Shown here: piece by piece, positions 46,748 to 54,594 of the stretch | Numbering within the stretch: the first letter of the stretch is position 1 | Layout of the letters: each line of letters begins with the position of its first letter | Assembly: GCF_024706985.1 (NCBI RefSeq) | Contig: NZ_JAMCCX010000016.1 | Location: forward strand, 1 to 64,000 | DNA: 64,000 bases | From: Alicyclobacillus sp. SP_1 | GTDB lineage: Bacteria; Bacillota; Bacilli; Alicyclobacillales; Alicyclobacillaceae | Direction of reading: 5' to 3' | Notes under the pieces: generated by a model | Told to the model about the DNA's origin: nothing | What the model saw: only the letters and a program-made list of their open reading frames with translations | Database searches by the model: none | Made by a program: the position numbers and the translations under genes

Positions 46748-47995
46748 ATGGGACATTGCGAGGATAGAGTTGCTCGCCGAGCCAATTTAGCGGATCAAAT
46801 GGTCGATGGAAGTCTTGCGATTTTTTTTGCTGGAGAAGCTCCGCCGAAGTCGGAAGACCATGCATACGATTTTTCGGTGAATCGCAACTTTTTCTATTTG
46901 ACAGGCATTGACCGGGAAAGTGCTTGCTTAGTGATGAGTAAGCGAAATGGCCAGGTCTCGGAAATCTTGTTCATCGAACGGCCTAATCCAGACATGGAGA
47001 AGTGGACTGGAAGGCGAATGACGGTGGAAGAGGCAAAGGTACATAGCGGACTGGAGACCGTCCTCTATACCGAGGCATTTGAGGGATGGTTTGGCCGGGC
47101 CATGAGTTGGCAGAATCTACAAACTCTCTATTTGGATTTTGACCAGCACAGTTTCGGTCAGCCTACGCTGCAGTCGGCGCACCGATTTGCGCACCAGATT
47201 CAGCAAAAATACCCTGGTTTACGCGTGATGAATTTTCACTATGCACTTGGACAAATGCGTCTTTACAAATCTTCTTCTGAGATTGAGGAGACTCGGAAAG
47301 CGATTGACATCACCGATGCAGGGATTCGAAATGTGTTGGCGCACAGTAAGGCTGGCATGATGGAGTACGAGTTGGAAGCTCACTTCAACTTCACTCTCTG
47401 TAGCCGCGGGGTGCGCGAGCATGCGTTTCCGCCCATCGTCGCTGGCGGCGAGCGGGCTACCATTCTTCACTATGTGACTAACAGCGAGGCTACCAAGGAT
47501 GGAGACTTGGTCTTGCTCGATTTAGGCGCTGCCTGCCGGTACTACTCGGCGGACATTTCCAGAACATTTCCGGTCAATGGAAAATTCTCAGCGCTCCAGA
47601 AACAGTACTATCAGTTGGTCTTGGACACGGAAGAAGCAGTCATCGCGGCTGTTCGTCCTGGGGTAACGTGGAAGGAACTGAATGACATTGCGAAGAGCTC
47701 GCTCGCAAAAGGGATGATGAAGCTCGGCAAGATTCAACAGGAAAGTGAGCTCGACCGATATTACTATCACAGTGTTGGACATCCACTCGGCTTAGATACG
47801 CATGATGTCGGAGACCGGGACGCAGTATTAGCACCTGGTATGATTGTGACCATTGAACCGGGTATCTACGTTGCTGAGGATAGTATCGGCATTCGGATTG
47901 AAGACGACATTCTCGTGACCGAGACAGGCCACGAAAACCTCTCACGGCAAATCCCGAAAACCATTGCAGAAATCGAGCGTTGCATGGCGCACTGA
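46748..47995 (+). CDS. M24 family Xaa-Pro aminopeptidase
   Basis: A 415-residue metallopeptidase of the aminopeptidase P type, removing N-terminal residues before proline. The N-terminal creatinase-like domain (VDGSLAIFFAGEAPPKSEDHAYDFSVNRNFFYLTGI) is followed by the pita-bread catalytic domain with metal ligands in LLDLGAACRYYSADISRTFP (two Asp), HSVGHPLGLDTHD (His), MIVTIEPGIYV (Glu) and GIRIEDDILVTE (Glu). All five ligands are present. It begins 4 bp after mgsA and probably shares its transcript. Confidence 0.92.
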   Translation: MGHCEDRVARRANLADQMVDGSLAIFFAGEAPPKSEDHAYDFSVNRNFFYLTGIDRESACLVMSKRNGQVSEILFIERPNPDMEKWTGRRMTVEEAKVHSGLETVLYTEAFEGWFGRAMSWQNLQTLYLDFDQHSFGQPTLQSAHRFAHQIQQKYPGLRVMNFHYALGQMRLYKSSSEIEETRKAIDITDAGIRNVLAHSKAGMMEYELEAHFNFTLCSRGVREHAFPPIVAGGERATILHYVTNSEATKDGDLVLLDLGAACRYYSADISRTFPVNGKFSALQKQYYQLVLDTEEAVIAAVRPGVTWKELNDIAKSSLAKGMMKLGKIQQESELDRYYYHSVGHPLGLDTHDVGDRDAVLAPGMIVTIEPGIYVAEDSIGIRIEDDILVTETGHENLSRQIPKTIAEIERCMAH

Positions 47996-48056
47996 CGCTG
48001 CGGTTTCAAGAAGAGTCGATACTCTGTAACTAATAAAAGAGACGGGCCTTTGTGAA

Positions 48057-48087
48057 GGGCGGGTGACATCGGTCGATGCACCCGCCC
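48057..48087 (+). terminator. Hairpin after the M24 peptidase gene
   Basis: GGGCGGGTG and CACCCGCCC pair over 9 bp with a 13-base loop, lying between two convergent genes. There is no long U run on the plus strand, so termination strength is uncertain. Confidence 0.45.
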
Positions 48088-48166
48088 GCGCTGTCTTCTT
48101 CCAAAGGAGATGTTTCATTCTCAACTCGCCGTTGGCCCGTCCTGCGGTGCGTGCGGCCTTCTGACC

Positions 48167-49861
48167 TTAAAATTTCGTATCGTCGACCGACTCGAGCCAC
48201 TGTGCCAGTGGTTCCACCACGCTGGCCACACATCCATCGTCAAAGGGAGATTGCAGATTCGCTTCCTGAACGAGTTCAAGAAACGACTTACTCCCCCCTA
48301 AGCGGCAGAGATGCAAGTAGTCCCGCCATGCATCCGTTCGGTTCCTCTCGGCTTTCAGCCAGAACTGAAAGGCACAAATTTGCGCCAGCGTGTAGTCGAT
48401 GTAATAGAAAGGTTCCATATAGATGTGCGTCTGAATTTGCCAGTAGCCGCCCTCTTCCAGGAACTCGTTGTCCTCATACTTCCGAAGTGGCAAATATTTT
48501 TCCTCTATTTCCCGCCACTTCGCTTTGCGCTCTGCGGGCGTCAAATCCGGATGAGCATAGATAGCATGCTGAAACTCATCCACTGCAACCCCATATGGAA
48601 TGAACTGCAGAGCTCCAGAGACGTGCATGAATCGGAACTTTTCAGCATCCTCTTGAAAGAAACGGTCCATCCACGGCCATGTCAGAAACTCCATGCTCAT
48701 CGAGTGAATCTCGCAGGCTTCCAGTGTTGGGAAATAGTACTCTGGGACTGGGTATTTCCGGCTCATGTAGCTTTGAAACGCGTGACCAGCTTCATGTGTC
48801 AAAACCGTGACGTCATCATAGGTGCCGTTGAAGTTTGCAAAGATGTAGGGAGCTTCATATTTCGGGATATTGGTGCAATAGCCGCCGACGGCTTTCCCTT
48901 TTTTACTGAGCAAATCCAGCAGTTCATCGCGGACCATGGTCTGGAAAAACTCGTCCGTTTCCGGAGACAACTCCCGGTACATCTCCACCCCATTCTCTAG
49001 AATCCACTGCGGATCCCCTTTTGGAGCCGGATTTCCGGAGAGAAACGTGAGACTCTCATCGTAATAGAGCAGAGTGTCGAGATGAAGCCGCTCTCTCTGG
49101 CGCTCCTTCAACCGCACCGACAAAGGTACCAGATGTTGAGCCACTTGGCGCCGAAAATTCGCAACCATCGACGCGTCATAATCGGTCCGATTCAAGCGGG
49201 CATAAGCTAATTCAGTAAAGTTTGAAAAGCCAAGTTCCCTGGCAATCTGAGCGCGAAGATGCACTAATTCGTCATACAAACGGTCATATTCTTCGGCGTT
49301 TTGCTGAAAGTAGGCCCACAGTTTTTGTTGGGCCTCTTTGCGTACTTCGCGAGTAACAGACTGCAAGTAAGGTCCCATTTGGGAGAGATTGAGTTTGTCT
49401 CCCTGCCAATCGATTTCTGCAGATGCCATCAGCTTTTGATAGGCACTGACCAAGGCGTTCTCTTTTTGGAGAAGTGGTAAGACGGATGGGTCGAACGTCT
49501 TGAGAGTGGTCTCTGCCAGTCGAAACAACTGACGACCCCACTTGGCCTCCAAAGTCTTCCGAAACGGAGACTCGACCAAGACCCGGTAGAACTCGGTCGT
49601 CAGTCCCTGCATCCGCGGCGAGTTTTCGTCAAAAAAATCTTGCTCTGTTGCGTAAAACTCGTCTCTCGTATCGACGGTGTGGCGAATCGATGCAATCGAC
49701 TGCATGGAATTAAACTCCATCCGCTGACGATTAATATCTGCCATCAGTTGGTCCTGTTCGTCCGCAGTAGCGGCTGCCGAAAACTGCTCCAAAGCAGCTC
49801 GAAACCGCTGTTCCAATTCGTCCATATCTGGACGAACGTAAGGGTATTCAGAAAACTTCAC
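48167..49861 (-). CDS. M3 family oligoendopeptidase
   Basis: A 564-residue cytosolic zinc peptidase of the M3 (PepF-like) family that degrades oligopeptides. The zinc site is VTVLTHEAGHAFQSYMSRKYP (HEXXH), with the third ligand in EACEIHSMSMEFLTWPW. The N-terminal helical domain and the AYYIDYTLAQICAFQFW-like segment near the C-terminus fit the clade annotated as M3 oligoendopeptidase. The start has GAGGGG upstream. It is convergent with the M24 peptidase gene. Confidence 0.93.
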   Translation of the reverse strand: MKFSEYPYVRPDMDELEQRFRAALEQFSAAATADEQDQLMADINRQRMEFNSMQSIASIRHTVDTRDEFYATEQDFFDENSPRMQGLTTEFYRVLVESPFRKTLEAKWGRQLFRLAETTLKTFDPSVLPLLQKENALVSAYQKLMASAEIDWQGDKLNLSQMGPYLQSVTREVRKEAQQKLWAYFQQNAEEYDRLYDELVHLRAQIARELGFSNFTELAYARLNRTDYDASMVANFRRQVAQHLVPLSVRLKERQRERLHLDTLLYYDESLTFLSGNPAPKGDPQWILENGVEMYRELSPETDEFFQTMVRDELLDLLSKKGKAVGGYCTNIPKYEAPYIFANFNGTYDDVTVLTHEAGHAFQSYMSRKYPVPEYYFPTLEACEIHSMSMEFLTWPWMDRFFQEDAEKFRFMHVSGALQFIPYGVAVDEFQHAIYAHPDLTPAERKAKWREIEEKYLPLRKYEDNEFLEEGGYWQIQTHIYMEPFYYIDYTLAQICAFQFWLKAERNRTDAWRDYLHLCRLGGSKSFLELVQEANLQSPFDDGCVASVVEPLAQWLESVDDTKF

Positions 49862-49907
49862 GCGTCATTCCCCTCTCATCGTTCTCAATTCGCGAAGCCG
49901 CTTACGG

Positions 49908-50360
49908 TTAAGTATCTTGAGTTTTGTTGACCCACGCTTTTCGCTGTCTGCGCAGTACTTCGACCGGATTCGGAGCAGTCGTGGACGCGGACGTGGGGAG
50001 CGTATGGGTGCCAGAGGACGACTCTGACTCCTCTATGGGATTCACCTGTACGCCCATCTCTCGGTTGGCATCGCCAGGGAGAGGCCGCGAAGCAAGCGGA
50101 TCAGCCGACTCGCGCCGTGACCTGTCGCGGGCGCTCGACTCACTGATGTTCGTGCCCTCGTCTGCCAGCTGACCCGTGCGCCGCAGAAAGTCCTCAACCA
50201 TGCGCAGAATCTCAAAACTGAAGTCGCCGCGCTGCTTCAATGCGGTCAAATAGTCGCAAACCGCCGGTGGTGTGTCGCTCGCTACATAGATGTGGATGAC
50301 ATCTCCGTGGTGCACCGCTTTGTCCTTAGAGCGCCGGATTCGGCTCCGCTCAGTAGCCAT
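49908..50360 (-). CDS. ParR-like putative DNA-binding adaptor (ribbon-helix-helix layout)
   Basis: A 150-residue protein encoded directly after, and overlapping, the actin-like gene (TGATG). Residues 19-62 have the layout of a ribbon-helix-helix domain: a short strand (DVIHIYVAS), a helix (PPAVCDYLTALKQRG), a tight turn and a second helix (SFEILRMVEDFLRRTG). The N-terminus is basic (TERSRIRRSKDK). The C-terminal 85 residues are Ser/Glu/Arg-rich and disordered except for a final basic helix (PVEVLRRQRKAWVNK), a plausible actin-filament contact. This is the organisation of ParR adaptors of type II plasmid partition. The assignment rests on topology and gene position, not on recognised homology. 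Confidence 0.6.
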   Translation of the reverse strand: MATERSRIRRSKDKAVHHGDVIHIYVASDTPPAVCDYLTALKQRGDFSFEILRMVEDFLRRTGQLADEGTNISESSARDRSRRESADPLASRPLPGDANREMGVQVNPIEESESSSGTHTLPTSASTTAPNPVEVLRRQRKAWVNKTQDT

Positions 50361-51517
50361 CAGTCAGCCTCCGTGGCCGCCACCTCCGCGCCCGTCTGTA
50401 GAGCAGCTATCAAGGAGCGATAGGTGCCGCGAACATTTCGCAGTTGTGCCAGTTCTGGGCGGTCGAAGCGAAGCGGGTGCCCTTGCCTATCCAATTCTTT
50501 TAAATACGACGATAAGATGACCGACCCGCCGCCGATAAACAAAAACTCCTCAGCCTCCGGAGCTGCTGCCCAGGCATCAAACACACGCTCTAGCACATCC
50601 CTCGCGAGCTCTGTCAGATGCAAGTTGGCGATGTCTGAGATGTTCCCTTTAACGAGCCCTTGCCAGCGCACCTCGTACTCTTTATGCACGAGCCGGTCTA
50701 CGACATTCACGTCGCTCGTCAGATACTCCTGCCCGACGGAGGCGTTGAAGTCTTTGCGAATGCGCGACACGATGTCGTTCAAGTTAATGCGAAAGCCGGT
50801 GGACGTATAGTCATCGAGCTCCAGCCCTGGCTTGAAAAAGGCGATATCTAAGTCAATGCCACCCAAGTCGGCAACGCCAAAAGATTTGTCCGCGAGAGTG
50901 CTTTTCGGGTCACTCGCGAGATCGATAATGCCAGCCACATTGTCGACATTGACCCCATCAGGAAGAGACACGCTTAGTTCTACCGATACCCCTTCGAGCC
51001 CTGGCGTAGATTTGAACACCACCGTATGAACTCCGCTCGTGAGTCTTGCTTCCAAAACAGCCGCCTCGGCCACCTCGGCGATAGGCAGTCCAATGCCGAG
51101 TTGTACATCGGCGCGCAAGCGACGGACACCAGCGCTAATAGCCTGTTGGTTTTTCATAGCCGTCGCAAAAGCCAGCATCGTCAGTGTCGTAATCATCGTC
51201 TCCGTCCGTTGCGACTTCATCTGGGCTGCCCGGTGACCGAGAATGGACTGCGCCCTAGCGTTTCGGGAAGCGAGGATACCCACGTGGAAATTGCGGCCGA
51301 CCCCTTCGGGTAGAGCTGGAGAGACAATCTCGATGTCCAAATTGTCAATAGGAGTACCTTGGTTGAGAATAACTTTTCTCTTCATCTCTGAAGGAACAAT
51401 GACATTCGGAATCATCAGTATGTTGTCCAGTTGATCGAAGGCAGCCTTTACAAAACTGTTCCCATTGTCGATGGCAATCACCATCGACGTATCTTTAACG
51501 CCCGCTTCCTTTGGCAT
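50360..51517 (-). CDS. ParM/StbA-like bacterial actin
   Basis: A 385-residue protein of the actin/Hsp70 ATPase superfamily, ParM/StbA group. Phosphate-1 is VIAIDNGNSFVKAAF, phosphate-2 is FGVADLGGIDLDIAFF, and the adenosine-binding turn is EFLFIGGGSVILSSYL. Between them lie the conserved RRLRADVQLGIGLPI and NLNDIVSRIRKDFNASVG. ParM proteins polymerise with ATP and push apart DNA molecules bound through ParR. Start: ATG at 51517 with GGAGCG upstream; a GTG at 51538 is possible. A good sigma-A promoter and an array of degenerate octamers lie directly upstream, and the ParR-like gene overlaps its end. Confidence 0.85.
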   Translation of the reverse strand: MPKEAGVKDTSMVIAIDNGNSFVKAAFDQLDNILMIPNVIVPSEMKRKVILNQGTPIDNLDIEIVSPALPEGVGRNFHVGILASRNARAQSILGHRAAQMKSQRTETMITTLTMLAFATAMKNQQAISAGVRRLRADVQLGIGLPIAEVAEAAVLEARLTSGVHTVVFKSTPGLEGVSVELSVSLPDGVNVDNVAGIIDLASDPKSTLADKSFGVADLGGIDLDIAFFKPGLELDDYTSTGFRINLNDIVSRIRKDFNASVGQEYLTSDVNVVDRLVHKEYEVRWQGLVKGNISDIANLHLTELARDVLERVFDAWAAAPEAEEFLFIGGGSVILSSYLKELDRQGHPLRFDRPELAQLRNVRGTYRSLIAALQTGAEVAATEAD

Positions 51518-51551
51518 GGAGTTCGCTCCGTTCTGCACATATTTGTCTACT

Positions 51552-51581
51552 AGTATAGGTTGGAGTAGAGAGGATAGTCAA
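51552..51581 (-). promoter_or_regulatory. Sigma-A promoter of the parM-like operon
   Basis: TTGACT (51576-51581) and TATACT (51552-51557) on the minus strand, spacer 18 bp. Transcription would begin about 28 nt before the ATG at 51517. Confidence 0.7.
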
Positions 51582-51610
51582 TGGACTTCATGAGATAACT
51601 ACTTCATCAC

Positions 51611-51666
51611 TTGATTGATTAATTGATTAAGTGCTTTAGTACATAATTAGTTAACTAGTTAATGCA
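51611..51666. repeat. Seven degenerate 8-bp tandem repeats, candidate parC-like site
   Basis: Read in steps of eight from 51611 the units are TTGATTGA, TTAATTGA, TTAAGTGC, TTTAGTAC, ATAATTAG, TTAACTAG and TTAATGCA. The consensus is about TTAATTGA. The stretch is very AT-rich against its surroundings and includes the palindrome TTAACTAGTTAA (51651-51662). It lies 30 bp upstream of the -35 box of the parM-like operon, where ParR-binding iterons are found in plasmid par loci. A heptamer ACTTCAT also occurs twice just beside it. Confidence 0.5.
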
Positions 51667-51723
51667 GGAGATGAACGCGCGTTTGGTCCGGCGCGAATTC
51701 CCACGCCCTCACGCGTTATCAAC

Positions 51724-51751
51724 TCAAAATGCCGGGTCCAACGGCCCCGGC
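51724..51751 (-). terminator. Terminator after the MaoC gene pair
   Basis: GCCGGG (51731-51736) and CCCGGC (51746-51751) form a GC stem. On the minus strand it is followed by ATTTTGAG. It insulates the par-like operon from maoC transcription. Confidence 0.6.
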
Positions 51752-51790
51752 CTTCGCCACCGATTCGGAAGCAACCTCATTCGGAACTGC

Positions 51791-52198
51791 TCACTTAAGC
51801 ATACGAAACGTCGCCGTACCAGACACTGCCTTGACTCCCTTTTGTGTCAGAGCCACCACATCACATTCCACCACATGACCGTCCGCCTCTTCACGCACGC
51901 CAGTAATCGTACCACTGCAGGTCAACACGTCCCCAGGACGAACCATCTCTTGAAACCGAACGCCCCACTCCTGCAAACGGCCGCGTGGACCCATCGCCTC
52001 TTTCAACATCTGGCCGACAAACGCCATGCTCAACATGCCGTGTGCAATGGTCCCCCCAAGTCCAACCTGCTCTGCATAGGCTTCCACCGTATGAATCGGA
52101 TTGAAGTCCCCCGAGGCCCCGGAGTACATCACCAATTGCGTCTGTGTAATTGCCGGCTTCACTAATTCTGGTAGTTTTTCGCCAACTTCCAGCTTCAT
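51791..52198 (-). CDS. MaoC-like hydratase/dehydratase, hot-dog subunit
   Basis: A 135-residue hot-dog protein with the hydratase-2 motif YSGASGDFNPIHT, which supplies the catalytic Asp and His, followed by GTIAHGMLSMAFVGQML and RFQEMVRPGDVLTCSGTIT. It acts on CoA- or ACP-bound 3-hydroxyacyl/enoyl chains. It is the second gene of a pair; together they resemble the HadA-HadB heterodimers of actinobacteria. The start is either ATG at 52198, with GGGGGAG upstream, or GTG at 52207, which overlaps the stop of the partner gene. Confidence 0.85.
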   Translation of the reverse strand: MKLEVGEKLPELVKPAITQTQLVMYSGASGDFNPIHTVEAYAEQVGLGGTIAHGMLSMAFVGQMLKEAMGPRGRLQEWGVRFQEMVRPGDVLTCSGTITGVREEADGHVVECDVVALTQKGVKAVSGTATFRMLK

Positions 52199-52203
52199 CT
52201 CAC

Positions 52204-52644
52204 TCACTCCCCCGCTCCCATTTGGATGACCGTTGAATTCTCCACCAACAAAACTTCACCGCTGCCACTCTTGACGACACCTTCAAACATAAAGAACGTC
52301 ATCTTTCCCATGCGGCCCGACGTCGGACGCACACGAAGCAGAGAACGCGAACAGTACACCACATCTCCTGCACAAATGGGTTCGTTATATTTGAACCGTT
52401 GCTCCCCATGAATCAAACCGTTCGTCGGAAGAACCAGACCTTCAATAACGCCAAAATCAAACGTCCGGCTAAACGTCGGGGGGATGGGGATGCCTCGATA
52501 ACCAGCCGCCTTTGCCACCTCAACCTCTCTGTAAATTCTGTCGTCATCGCCAATCGCATCCGCGAACTTACGAATCGCACCCTTCTCTACCTCATTGGGG
52601 ACCGTATTCGACACCACACCCACAAAATCTTCATAGCCACTCAT
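52204..52644 (-). CDS. MaoC-like N-terminal dehydratase partner (FAS1/HadA-like)
   Basis: A 146-residue hot-dog protein of the FAS1-like dehydratase group: VVSNTVPNEVEKGAIRKFADAIGDDDRIYREVEVAKAAGYRGIPIPPTFSRTF and LIHGEQRFKYNEPICAGDVVYC are typical of HadA-type subunits that lack the catalytic Asp/His pair and form the non-catalytic half. The overlap with the MaoC gene implies a stoichiometric complex. The physiological substrate is unknown; no fatty acid synthesis genes are adjacent. Confidence 0.82.
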   Translation of the reverse strand: MSGYEDFVGVVSNTVPNEVEKGAIRKFADAIGDDDRIYREVEVAKAAGYRGIPIPPTFSRTFDFGVIEGLVLPTNGLIHGEQRFKYNEPICAGDVVYCSRSLLRVRPTSGRMGKMTFFMFEGVVKSGSGEVLLVENSTVIQMGAGE

Positions 52645-52869
52645 AGCAAAACCTCCCCAGTCTACAACTCACTTCATTCTAACCTGCTGCAAACAGACCG
52701 CCAAACTAGCCAAAAAAATCGCCAAAGTCATGTCGAATCTACGAGGATTTGTGAAAAGATTGTCGAATATGCATTCGGACTCCGCCAAAATCTTCGGTTC
52801 GCGAAAGCAGTATCGCACCCCACCATCGCTCAGTAACATCATACTCTTTGCCTAAAGGAGCACGCACTC

Positions 52870-54594
52870 ATGGGTATCATCCGCTCTATTCGTTCGAAAT
52901 TCATTGTTAAAGTGACACTTTCTCTCTCTCTGATTCTCGTCTTGATCGCCGGGATGGTGCTCACAGCCATCCTTACATCCCGCAATGTCAACCAGGATGC
53001 AGCCACCATCTCGGCTCGTGACCTCCCCTTTGAAAACGACGCTACCCAAGCCTATCTAGGATTCCTCAACATGGACGACCAATCGAACATGTGGGTCGGA
53101 CTCAAAAGTTTCGGCAATCATTCGCTGAATCAAGCAACTTATCAACAAATCATACAAGGCGAACAGCAACTGAACGCTTCTCTCGCCAAATTACAAAAAC
53201 TAGCTACCACTCCCCGGCTCCAAAAGCTCATGAAGCAGACACTCTCCGATGCTGCAGACTATGAAGGCTATTTTCAACAGGTTCGAACCGATTACAAAAC
53301 CAACTATAAACTCGCGGAAGAGACCATGTATGTCTCGAACTCGAATGCATCGAACAACTTGACCAATGACCTGACGGAACTCGTCGCATACGGCCAAAAC
53401 ATGACCGTCAAGCGAGCGGCCAATACGAGCGACATGGCTAAGGCCGACGAAATTCAATTTCCGCTCTATGGACTTATTCTGTTCGTAGCCTGTCTTCTGC
53501 TTTCCTTCTACGTACGACGTTCTATCAGGCCCGTTCCGGACGTAGCCAAGCGTCTCGAAGCGATGGCCTCCGGCAATTTGCAAATCGAAGACATGTCTGT
53601 GCGCACCTCGGATGAAATCGGACGCTTGGCCACCGCTTTCAACCAAATGAAGCAAAATCTCCGTCAACTCGTCGGGAAGACCCGCGACAATTCCAACGCC
53701 GTGGCTCACGCCGCTTCCGCACTGCAGGCTGGCGCCGAAGAGACGACCAAAGCCGTACAGAGTGTGGCCGAGGCATTACAAAACATCACCCACCAGATGG
53801 AAGAACAGAATCGCGGCTTCCGCGAGACCATGCTGGCAACGGAAGAAATGTCGTCGGGCGTACAGGTCACCGCCGAAGCCGCATCCGAGGTCACGAGCAA
53901 AGTTCAGAGCTTGGCAGATAGTGCATCGTCCGGCAACGACGTGATGCAAGAGACGGCCAACATGATGAACAGCATCGCGACCGCAGCCGCACTCTCCCAA
54001 AACCAGATTCAGTCACTTGCCGACCGTTCCACGCAAATTGAGGAAATTATTCGCACGATTACCGAGATCGCCAAAAAGACAAACCTTCTAGCCTTAAACG
54101 CCGCCATCGAGGCGGCACGGGCTGGAGAAAGCGGGCGAGGTTTTGCCGTCGTCGCCAACGAAGTGCGCAATCTTGCGACGGAGGCCACTAAATCGGCTGA
54201 GGGGATTTCCGAACTCATACGGGGCATCCAACTCGATGTGGCCGAGTCTGTAGAAAAGATATCTACCATGACGAGTTCAGTCGCCCATGGGTCAGACATG
54301 ATGCGCCAATCGGCCACCCTCTTCTCCCATGTCGAGACGACCAGCAGCGAAATCGCAGCGGCCATCGAAGGTATCTCGGCTGCAACGGAAGAAATGTCCG
54401 CCAATGCAGAGGAAATCAGCGCAGCCGTCCAGAGAATGGCCGCCTCTACAGATGAGTCCGCTCTACATGTAGAGAATGTCTCGGCTGCCACCGAAGAGCA
54501 GATGGCATCCATGGAAGAAGTCGCGGCTTCCGCAACGGAGCTTCATTCCCTCGCCGCGTCCTTGCAAGAATCGCTGACACAATTCCAGGTTTAA
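52870..54594 (+). CDS. Methyl-accepting chemotaxis protein
   Basis: A 574-residue chemoreceptor. Two membrane helices (about residues 12-36 and 196-215) bracket a 160-residue extracytoplasmic helical sensor of four-helix-bundle type ([37 protein letters not shown]). A HAMP domain follows ([34 protein letters not shown]), then the long coiled coil with the signalling tip [36 protein letters not shown] that contacts CheA/CheW. No other chemotaxis gene is nearby. The start has AAAGGAG upstream. The ligand is unknown. Confidence 0.93.

Follow-up and report, generated by a model that had tools for sequence, protein, structure and literature searches.

An actin-type partition cassette near the chromosome origin of Alicyclobacillaceae: a possible second system acting on the origin region

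What does a plasmid-type arrangement of repeat array, actin gene and adaptor gene do in a bacterial chromosome? This question is raised by a locus in contig 16 of a 3.4-Mb draft genome. The stretch of DNA analysed, referred to here as the window, is 64 kb long. An initial annotation had read the locus as a ParM/StbA-type actin gene, a small ribbon-helix-helix gene and an upstream repeat array, and had proposed either a domesticated plasmid remnant or a filament system with a chromosomal role. Our analysis favours the second of these two readings. The locus has four features:

50360..51517, minus strand: ParM/Alp-type actin ATPase gene, 385 aa (Pfam, PHROG, invariant nucleotide-site residues)
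49908..50360, minus strand: ParR-like adaptor gene, 150 aa (profile pairing with the actin, AlphaFold2 layout, C-terminal motif)
51585..51664, minus strand: parC-like array of ten degenerate octamers in register, candidate ParR binding site (shuffle test, period scan, Tandem Repeats Finder)
51552..51581, minus strand: promoter-like site of the sigma-A type (TTGACT-18-TATACT), lying downstream of the array, 3 bp from its last octamer

The actin start was taken as the ATG at 51517; the ORF list extends the frame to 51538 via an upstream GTG. The protein matched Pfam families ALP_N (2.7e-8) and Alp7A_like_C (7e-9), both over the cut-off, and PHROG 691 "partition protein" (1.8e-18), in agreement with the earlier call of a ParM/StbA-type actin. 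Its NCBIfam ParM score was far under the cut-off (16 of 417 bits). The residues of D-N-G, D-x-G-G and G-G-G, which we take to be the three nucleotide-site motifs, were invariant in 17/17 actin orthologs. An AlphaFold2 model built from five sequences was poor (pLDDT 50) and was set aside. The nearest named relative found by the actin protein was A. montanus (74%). These sequence matches support assignment of the gene product to the ParM/Alp group of the actin superfamily.

The adaptor ORF overlaps the actin stop by one base in the window. Relative to the actin stop, the adaptor start lies at -4 in 15 of the 17 orthologous pairs, at -1 in one (the window) and at +2 in one (G009). The adaptor has a ribbon-helix-helix-like N-terminal domain (~residues 18-67), a disordered linker and a conserved C-terminal helix (132-149); the AlphaFold2 model shows an extended N-terminus, helices at 32-44 and 49-67, a disordered middle and the C-terminal helix. 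Because confidence of this five-sequence model is modest (mean pLDDT 58) and Foldseek gave no PDB match, the annotated ribbon-helix-helix fold is only probable, although the predicted layout fits it. Searches of Pfam, NCBIfam and PDB sequences gave no meaningful match for the adaptor. Whole adaptor orthologs range from 127 to 390 aa, with a variable linker and a conserved N-terminal domain. The 390-aa adaptor of A. tolerans BL-1 (L052:7173-8345) carries a GGFEQ-like linker repeat and keeps both conserved ends. The C-terminal motif is conserved, yet differs between the two ortholog clades (A and B, defined below). By analogy with known adaptors, helix 132-149 is a candidate tail for the ParM filament end.

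Many units of the upstream array are of types NNTTAANT and NNTGAAGT. In the window, a simple lag count gave too much noise (z 3.9 at lag 12 and z 3.5 at lag 8); therefore, a unit-information test with shuffles was used. The best fit was period 8 with 10 units (z = 12), and 0/200 dinucleotide shuffles of the intergenic DNA reached this score when all periods from 6 to 12 were allowed. The array was the strongest period-8 site in the 64-kb window (0.86 vs. 0.31 for the runner-up; mean -0.012, SD 0.079), and its G+C content was the 15th lowest among 63,921 stretches of 80 bp. Tandem Repeats Finder detected two short 8-bp rows inside it, at 51614-51630 and 51644-51662. Rfam gave no match in 47000-54000. 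The octamers annotated at 51611-51666 are real and in register; however, there are ten units rather than seven, and they span 51585-51664. A gap of 30 bp between repeats and promoter holds for the shorter span only, because in the full array only 3 bp separate the last octamer from the -35 box downstream of it. The annotated sigma-A promoter was found again as a promoter-like site, TTGACT-18-TATACT at 51581-51552, but this call is weak on its own because two such sites occurred in the region vs. 1.4 expected. The array would be a parC-like centromere and putative ParR binding site, and array, actin and adaptor stand in the annotated order parC-parM-parR.

Close orthologs of the actin (profile, E <= 1e-60) were present in 17/41 family genomes, belonging to 7/16 genera. 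A profile of the adaptor N-terminal domain, built from nine sequences, matched the same 17 genomes only, once each, adjoining the actin. The actin was absent from 24/41 family genomes; relatives therefore live without the cassette. Among 398 genomes drawn evenly from the class, orthologs (E <= 1e-40) were found in 11, all of them in Alicyclobacillaceae. PF22128 was found in 5/398 genomes of the phylum-wide draw, including that of the window, which is too sparse to place other chromosomal Alps relative to oriC.

In the actin tree, the 17 orthologs formed one branch (100/100) with a long stem from 14 other family and order homologs; these others include two carried by known plasmids and two from large chromosomal contigs of G008 and G011. 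The tree omits L017 (internal stop) and L022 (weak match) from 30 loci; two further actin matches had no locus. The branch divides into clade A (the window, G001, G009, G035, G036, G063, G064, G065) and clade B (G003, G004, G014, G018, G019, G021, G023, G024, G025). A tree built from 13 core proteins of nine genomes, seven of which carry the actin in the origin region, likewise gave this split 100% support. The actin A/B split agrees with the species tree.

The array period followed the same division. The best period was 8 in 8/8 clade A loci and 7 in 8/9 clade B loci (0/200 shuffles each). In G003, the remaining clade B genome, no array was seen at the place tested, where 161/200 shuffles reached the best score. 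The expectation that the gene pair and the repeat block recur in related chromosomes, with the array kept upstream of orthologous operons, was borne out: arrays were present at 16/17 loci, with diverged units and a 7-bp step in one clade. The units diverge between species and the step is conserved, as expected for binding sites changing with their protein. Measured from the window, actin identity between clades was only 43-44%, vs. 69-74% within clade A; core proteins were 67-70% identical across the split. Because of this difference between actin and core, the actin evidently evolved at an unusually high rate along the branch that also saw the change of array step. The cassette may have been replaced by a related one on this branch.

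Other repeats were seen in some origin regions. G003 contig 1 holds a heptamer block of the same style at ~3,980,300-3,980,700 (L109), on the other side of dnaA and ~55 kb away from it; it is possibly a moved centromere. The origin regions of genus g3 (L082-L091 in G024; L102-L111 in G003) and of G021 (L101) contain near-perfect 7-/8-bp tandem arrays and other simple repeats. The top peaks in G004, G023, G001 and G065 included no such repeats. Apart from the one G003 heptamer block, the other period-7/-8 peaks printed for the g3 and G021 origin regions were rejected as ordinary short tandem repeats.

The position of the cassette relative to oriC was determined from dnaA, which was located in 21 genomes. 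Actin and dnaA were on one contig in 13 carriers, and in 12 of these the distance was 31-105 kb: 31 kb in G019 and G025, 35 kb in G004, 37 kb in G001 and G024, 39 kb in G023, 61 kb in G009, 62 kb in G064, 71 kb in G065, 77 kb in G003, 93 kb in G063 and 105 kb in G021. The exception was G036 (A. acidoterrestris), in which the actin is 548 kb from dnaA. The A. acidoterrestris genome is described as rich in mobile elements (PMC9713406). In G000, G014, G018 and G035, the two genes fall on separate contigs. Draft contigs bias such measurements towards short distances, whereas contigs over 4 Mb constitute a subset free of this bias; in seven genomes the actin and dnaA share a contig of 4.2-6.0 Mb, and in 6/7 the actin was origin-near. 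By synteny with G001, the predicted distance from the actin to dnaA in the window genome is ~44 kb. The initial annotation missed the origin linkage because dnaA lies outside the window. Its statement that no replication, integrase or phage gene is nearby is true of the flanks that we looked at, but has to be read with the predicted position of dnaA.

The genes around the cassette differ between genera. In the window, the cassette is flanked by two genes of the MaoC/FAS1-dehydratase type and by an M3 peptidase gene (Pfam); flanks in other genera include PrkA, FolD, universal stress, NlpC/P60 and similar proteins (ten scanned). No phage or transfer gene was recognised among the scanned flanking genes. 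The FolD copy beside the actin in genus g5 had no counterpart within ~1 Mb of dnaA in G003, G024 and G021. In G003 and G024, the PrkA gene adjoining the actin is an additional copy, and G021, G036, G063, G064 and G065 had no PrkA copy nearer dnaA than ~470 kb. In G032, which lacks the cassette, flank genes FolD and aminotransferase lie together ~123 kb from dnaA (L152, C1:2990001-3010000); this place marks a lost or never-gained cassette site. As controls for position, the neighbouring genes give a mixed picture: FolD and PrkA do not share the origin linkage of the actin, but the M3 peptidase in part does (see below).

We compared origin regions of nine genomes. A block from about -31 to +27 kb around dnaA was largely collinear in the compared genomes, and genes turn over beyond it. 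Two genomes without actin within 100 kb of dnaA (G036 and G032) were not used as references, and only 8-9 kb to the right of dnaA was available in G001, G004 and G023. Beyond ±32 kb of dnaA, the actin was the only ORF with reciprocal best matches in all five other genera for 6/7 references, i.e., 1 of 123, 111, 128, 116, 37 and 31 ORFs in the respective origin zones; an ORF may fail this recurrence test through loss as well as through a move. In the seventh reference (G023), 4/68 ORFs recurred, and the other three were at 33-35 kb, which is the core edge elsewhere. Otherwise, the best of the remaining zone ORFs, a single one located at -33 kb in G003, recurred in 4/5 genera; the usual value was three or fewer.

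These results bear on the possibility that origin proximity is inertia only, i.e., that the cassette was inserted at the edge of a rearrangement-resistant oriC core and that its site has no function. A working cassette is compatible with this explanation. In G001, G004 and G023, the actin sits just outside the collinear core, within ~3-10 kb of its left end, and its distance from dnaA is similar in G019 and G025; G036 tolerates a distance of 548 kb. The M3 peptidase, found in 8/15 genomes, is often origin-near too (about 40, 58, 66, 90, 166 and 173 kb), although it is ~520 kb from dnaA in G032, and the better-matching of the two A. fastidiosus copies is at 738 kb, the second being at 58 kb. 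Because this flanking gene is also fairly origin-near in several genomes, inertia may explain part of the origin linkage. However, other ORFs of the same zone fail to recur in all genera, and in genus g3 the actin switched to the other arm (+37 and +77 kb) yet remained close to oriC. We consider inertia as the whole explanation a serious possibility, but a doubtful one.

A ParB_N search revealed an origin-near pair of ParB-type genes in 9/9 genomes, one of them a non-carrier. The pair is read as Spo0J and Noc, and a Soj-like ORF was recognised by eye between or beside the two genes. The actin cassette would therefore be an addition to ParABS and not a replacement of it. The reading that we prefer, with a probability of roughly 0.55, is that the cassette is a working ParCMR system that would act on the origin region beside Soj/Spo0J and has been kept for a chromosomal job near oriC. 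In this view, the origin of the chromosome may be moved or held with the aid of an actin filament. Points that weigh against this reading are the 548-kb distance in G036, the origin-near M3 peptidase, the 24 family genomes that lack the actin, the missing array at the G003 promoter and the low confidence of both structure models.

The events envisaged under this preferred reading are as follows. An intact type II (actin) partition cassette, parC-parM-parR, would have settled in the chromosome of an ancestor of the Alicyclobacillaceae lineage and been kept for a chromosomal role close to oriC. ParR dimers, of predicted ribbon-helix-helix fold, would line up on the 8-bp units beside the promoter and thereby presumably switch the operon down (autoregulation). 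In the parC-ParR complex, a ParM filament would be captured at its end by the C-terminal helices of ParR. Once the origin region has been copied, ParM filaments would grow between, or away from, the two parC copies, and would push the sister copies of the origin region apart or keep them in position. All of this would occur in addition to the action of Soj/Spo0J (ParABS), also encoded in these genomes. A more specific version is put forward tentatively, at somewhat less than even odds: the cassette would be a second actin-powered machine for origin segregation or positioning, with parC as an origin-proximal centromere beside Soj/Spo0J, and ParR and the array would have changed step together at the split of two lineages of the family, from 8 to 7 bp or the reverse.

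A chromosomal actin need not push sister origins. It could serve static anchoring, or form an autoregulated cytoskeletal filament, for example one that keeps the origin at the pole during spore formation. Alicyclobacillaceae are sporeformers, which counts for such a role; on the other hand, the one promoter-like site found is of the housekeeping (sigma-A) type. Cb-cParR can be a depolymerising factor, and systems of this kind therefore need not push (PMC12270681). We regard static anchoring as unlikely.

Still less likely, in our estimation, is a role in trans, in which the filament system stabilises plasmids, or excludes them through incompatibility via the chromosomal parC, and does not serve the chromosome. 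Besides the cassette actin, 6/17 carriers encode another ParM-type actin that is clearly divergent and is followed by a small ORF of its own: on contig 2 of G036 and contig 2 of G021, both known plasmids, and in G009 (C135), G019 (C37), G035 (C251) and G004 (C14). Two actin partition systems therefore coexist in these genomes, which counts for a role in trans, and help to plasmids is left as a possibility by Ali et al. 2025 (PMC12270681). A further, weak ParM-type match is present in G025. However, members of the clade were absent from plasmid records: in a search of 72,556 records, the 13 matches included no relative above 29.1% identity. Phage records gave no match to the actin. A role in trans would moreover leave the origin linkage unexplained.

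A winged-helix gene (HTH_36), similar to phage and plasmid replication initiators, adjoins parR in G024 (L043:8440-8901), G018 and G003. The same gene is present in G023 ~1 kb from parR, behind one other gene; the three further loci are L042:8401-8859, L041:11195-11647 and L039:7215-7679. The gene may reflect plasmid ancestry, or it may act as a third component of the cassette.

Strong purifying selection acts on the actin. In four close actin pairs, dN was 0.001-0.019 and dS 0.20-1.13, giving dN/dS of about 0.005-0.05; in a fifth pair (the window vs. G001), dS was saturated and dN was 0.186. From the plasmid-typical cassette and from the initiator-like gene beside or near parR, one might suspect that an integrated plasmid or phage is decaying here and that its remains have been kept by chance, but these selection data largely refute this idea, and together with the motifs intact in all orthologs, the strict actin-adaptor pairing, the array kept while its units diverge, and vertical inheritance, they make the remnant proposed in the initial annotation very improbable.

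The cassette can be compared with several known systems. With plasmid ParMRC (R1, pSK41, pB171) and Bacillota Alp7A/AlfA it shares the order centromere-actin-adaptor, upstream iterons at the promoter, and, as far as predicted, an adaptor layout with a putative N-terminal DNA-binding part and a conserved C-terminal tail (PMC5016525). The repeat unit of 8 or 7 bp is shorter than the 10-bp parC repeats of plasmid ParMRC (PMC5016525). The present cassette differs also in being chromosomal and in the long, variable, disordered linker of its adaptor. Of the features that characterise type II partition, tandem iterons at the operon promoter are present as putative sites (ten octamers; arrays at 16/17 loci); low-copy plasmid carriage is replaced here by chromosomal contigs, with no close plasmid relative.

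The ribbon-helix-helix ParB protein omega of pSM19035 binds 7-10 consecutive 7-bp repeats that overlap promoters, and the clade B heptamer arrays are close to these heptad parS arrays (PMC9499535). The partner of omega is a Walker ParA ATPase, whereas the partner here is an actin. The met boxes of MetJ, which are 8 bp long, are a parallel to the octamer arrays. ParABS (Soj/Spo0J) likewise differs in its motor, a Walker ATPase that works with ParB on parS. In AlpAC of the Corynebacterium glutamicum CGP3 prophage, an actin and a DNA-binding adaptor are encoded on a chromosome-borne element, as here (PMC5539076); the context of AlpAC is a prophage, whereas the flanking genes scanned here included no recognisable phage gene.

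The closest comparison is with the chromosome-encoded ParMR cassettes (cParCMR) described in 2025 for Desulfitobacterium, Clostridium, Moorella and others (Ali et al., PMC12270681). Both have a ParM-type actin and an adjacent ParR on the chromosome, conserved between related species, and in both ParA and ParB are also encoded in the same or related genomes (PMC12270681). Cb-cparC repeats lie directly upstream, as does the present array, and a putative replication initiation factor in the Clostridium neighbourhood is a further likeness (PMC12270681). Our assignment of the cassette to this kind is by description, as a chromosomal pair in 17/41 genomes and 7/16 genera. The array is a tandem one of 8- or 7-bp units, whereas cParCMR has three palindromic repeats, and it was found in 16/17 relatives, whereas no conserved cparC was identified among Clostridium strains (PMC12270681). 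The lineage differs as well: the main text of that paper does not name Alicyclobacillus, nor does it discuss origin position, "oriC" appearing only in a reference title (PMC12270681). Where the A. acidoterrestris genome paper deals with ParM, it mentions it only for the plasmid (PMC9713406). Literature searches on ParM in Alicyclobacillus, on chromosomal ParM and on origin-near ParM, ParR or parC gave no report of the cassette or its origin linkage among the matches listed. Actin-driven DNA segregation is established for plasmids, and a chromosomal role has not yet been demonstrated (PMC12270681). A cassette near oriC across genera, under strong selection and with a docking array at its own promoter makes the question of a chromosomal role directly testable, and the 8- and 7-bp array steps are a natural pair for studying the joint change of adaptor and centromere. 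Chromosomal ParMR as such has precedents; what is new is its origin-linked form, in which the array switches from an 8-bp to a 7-bp step.
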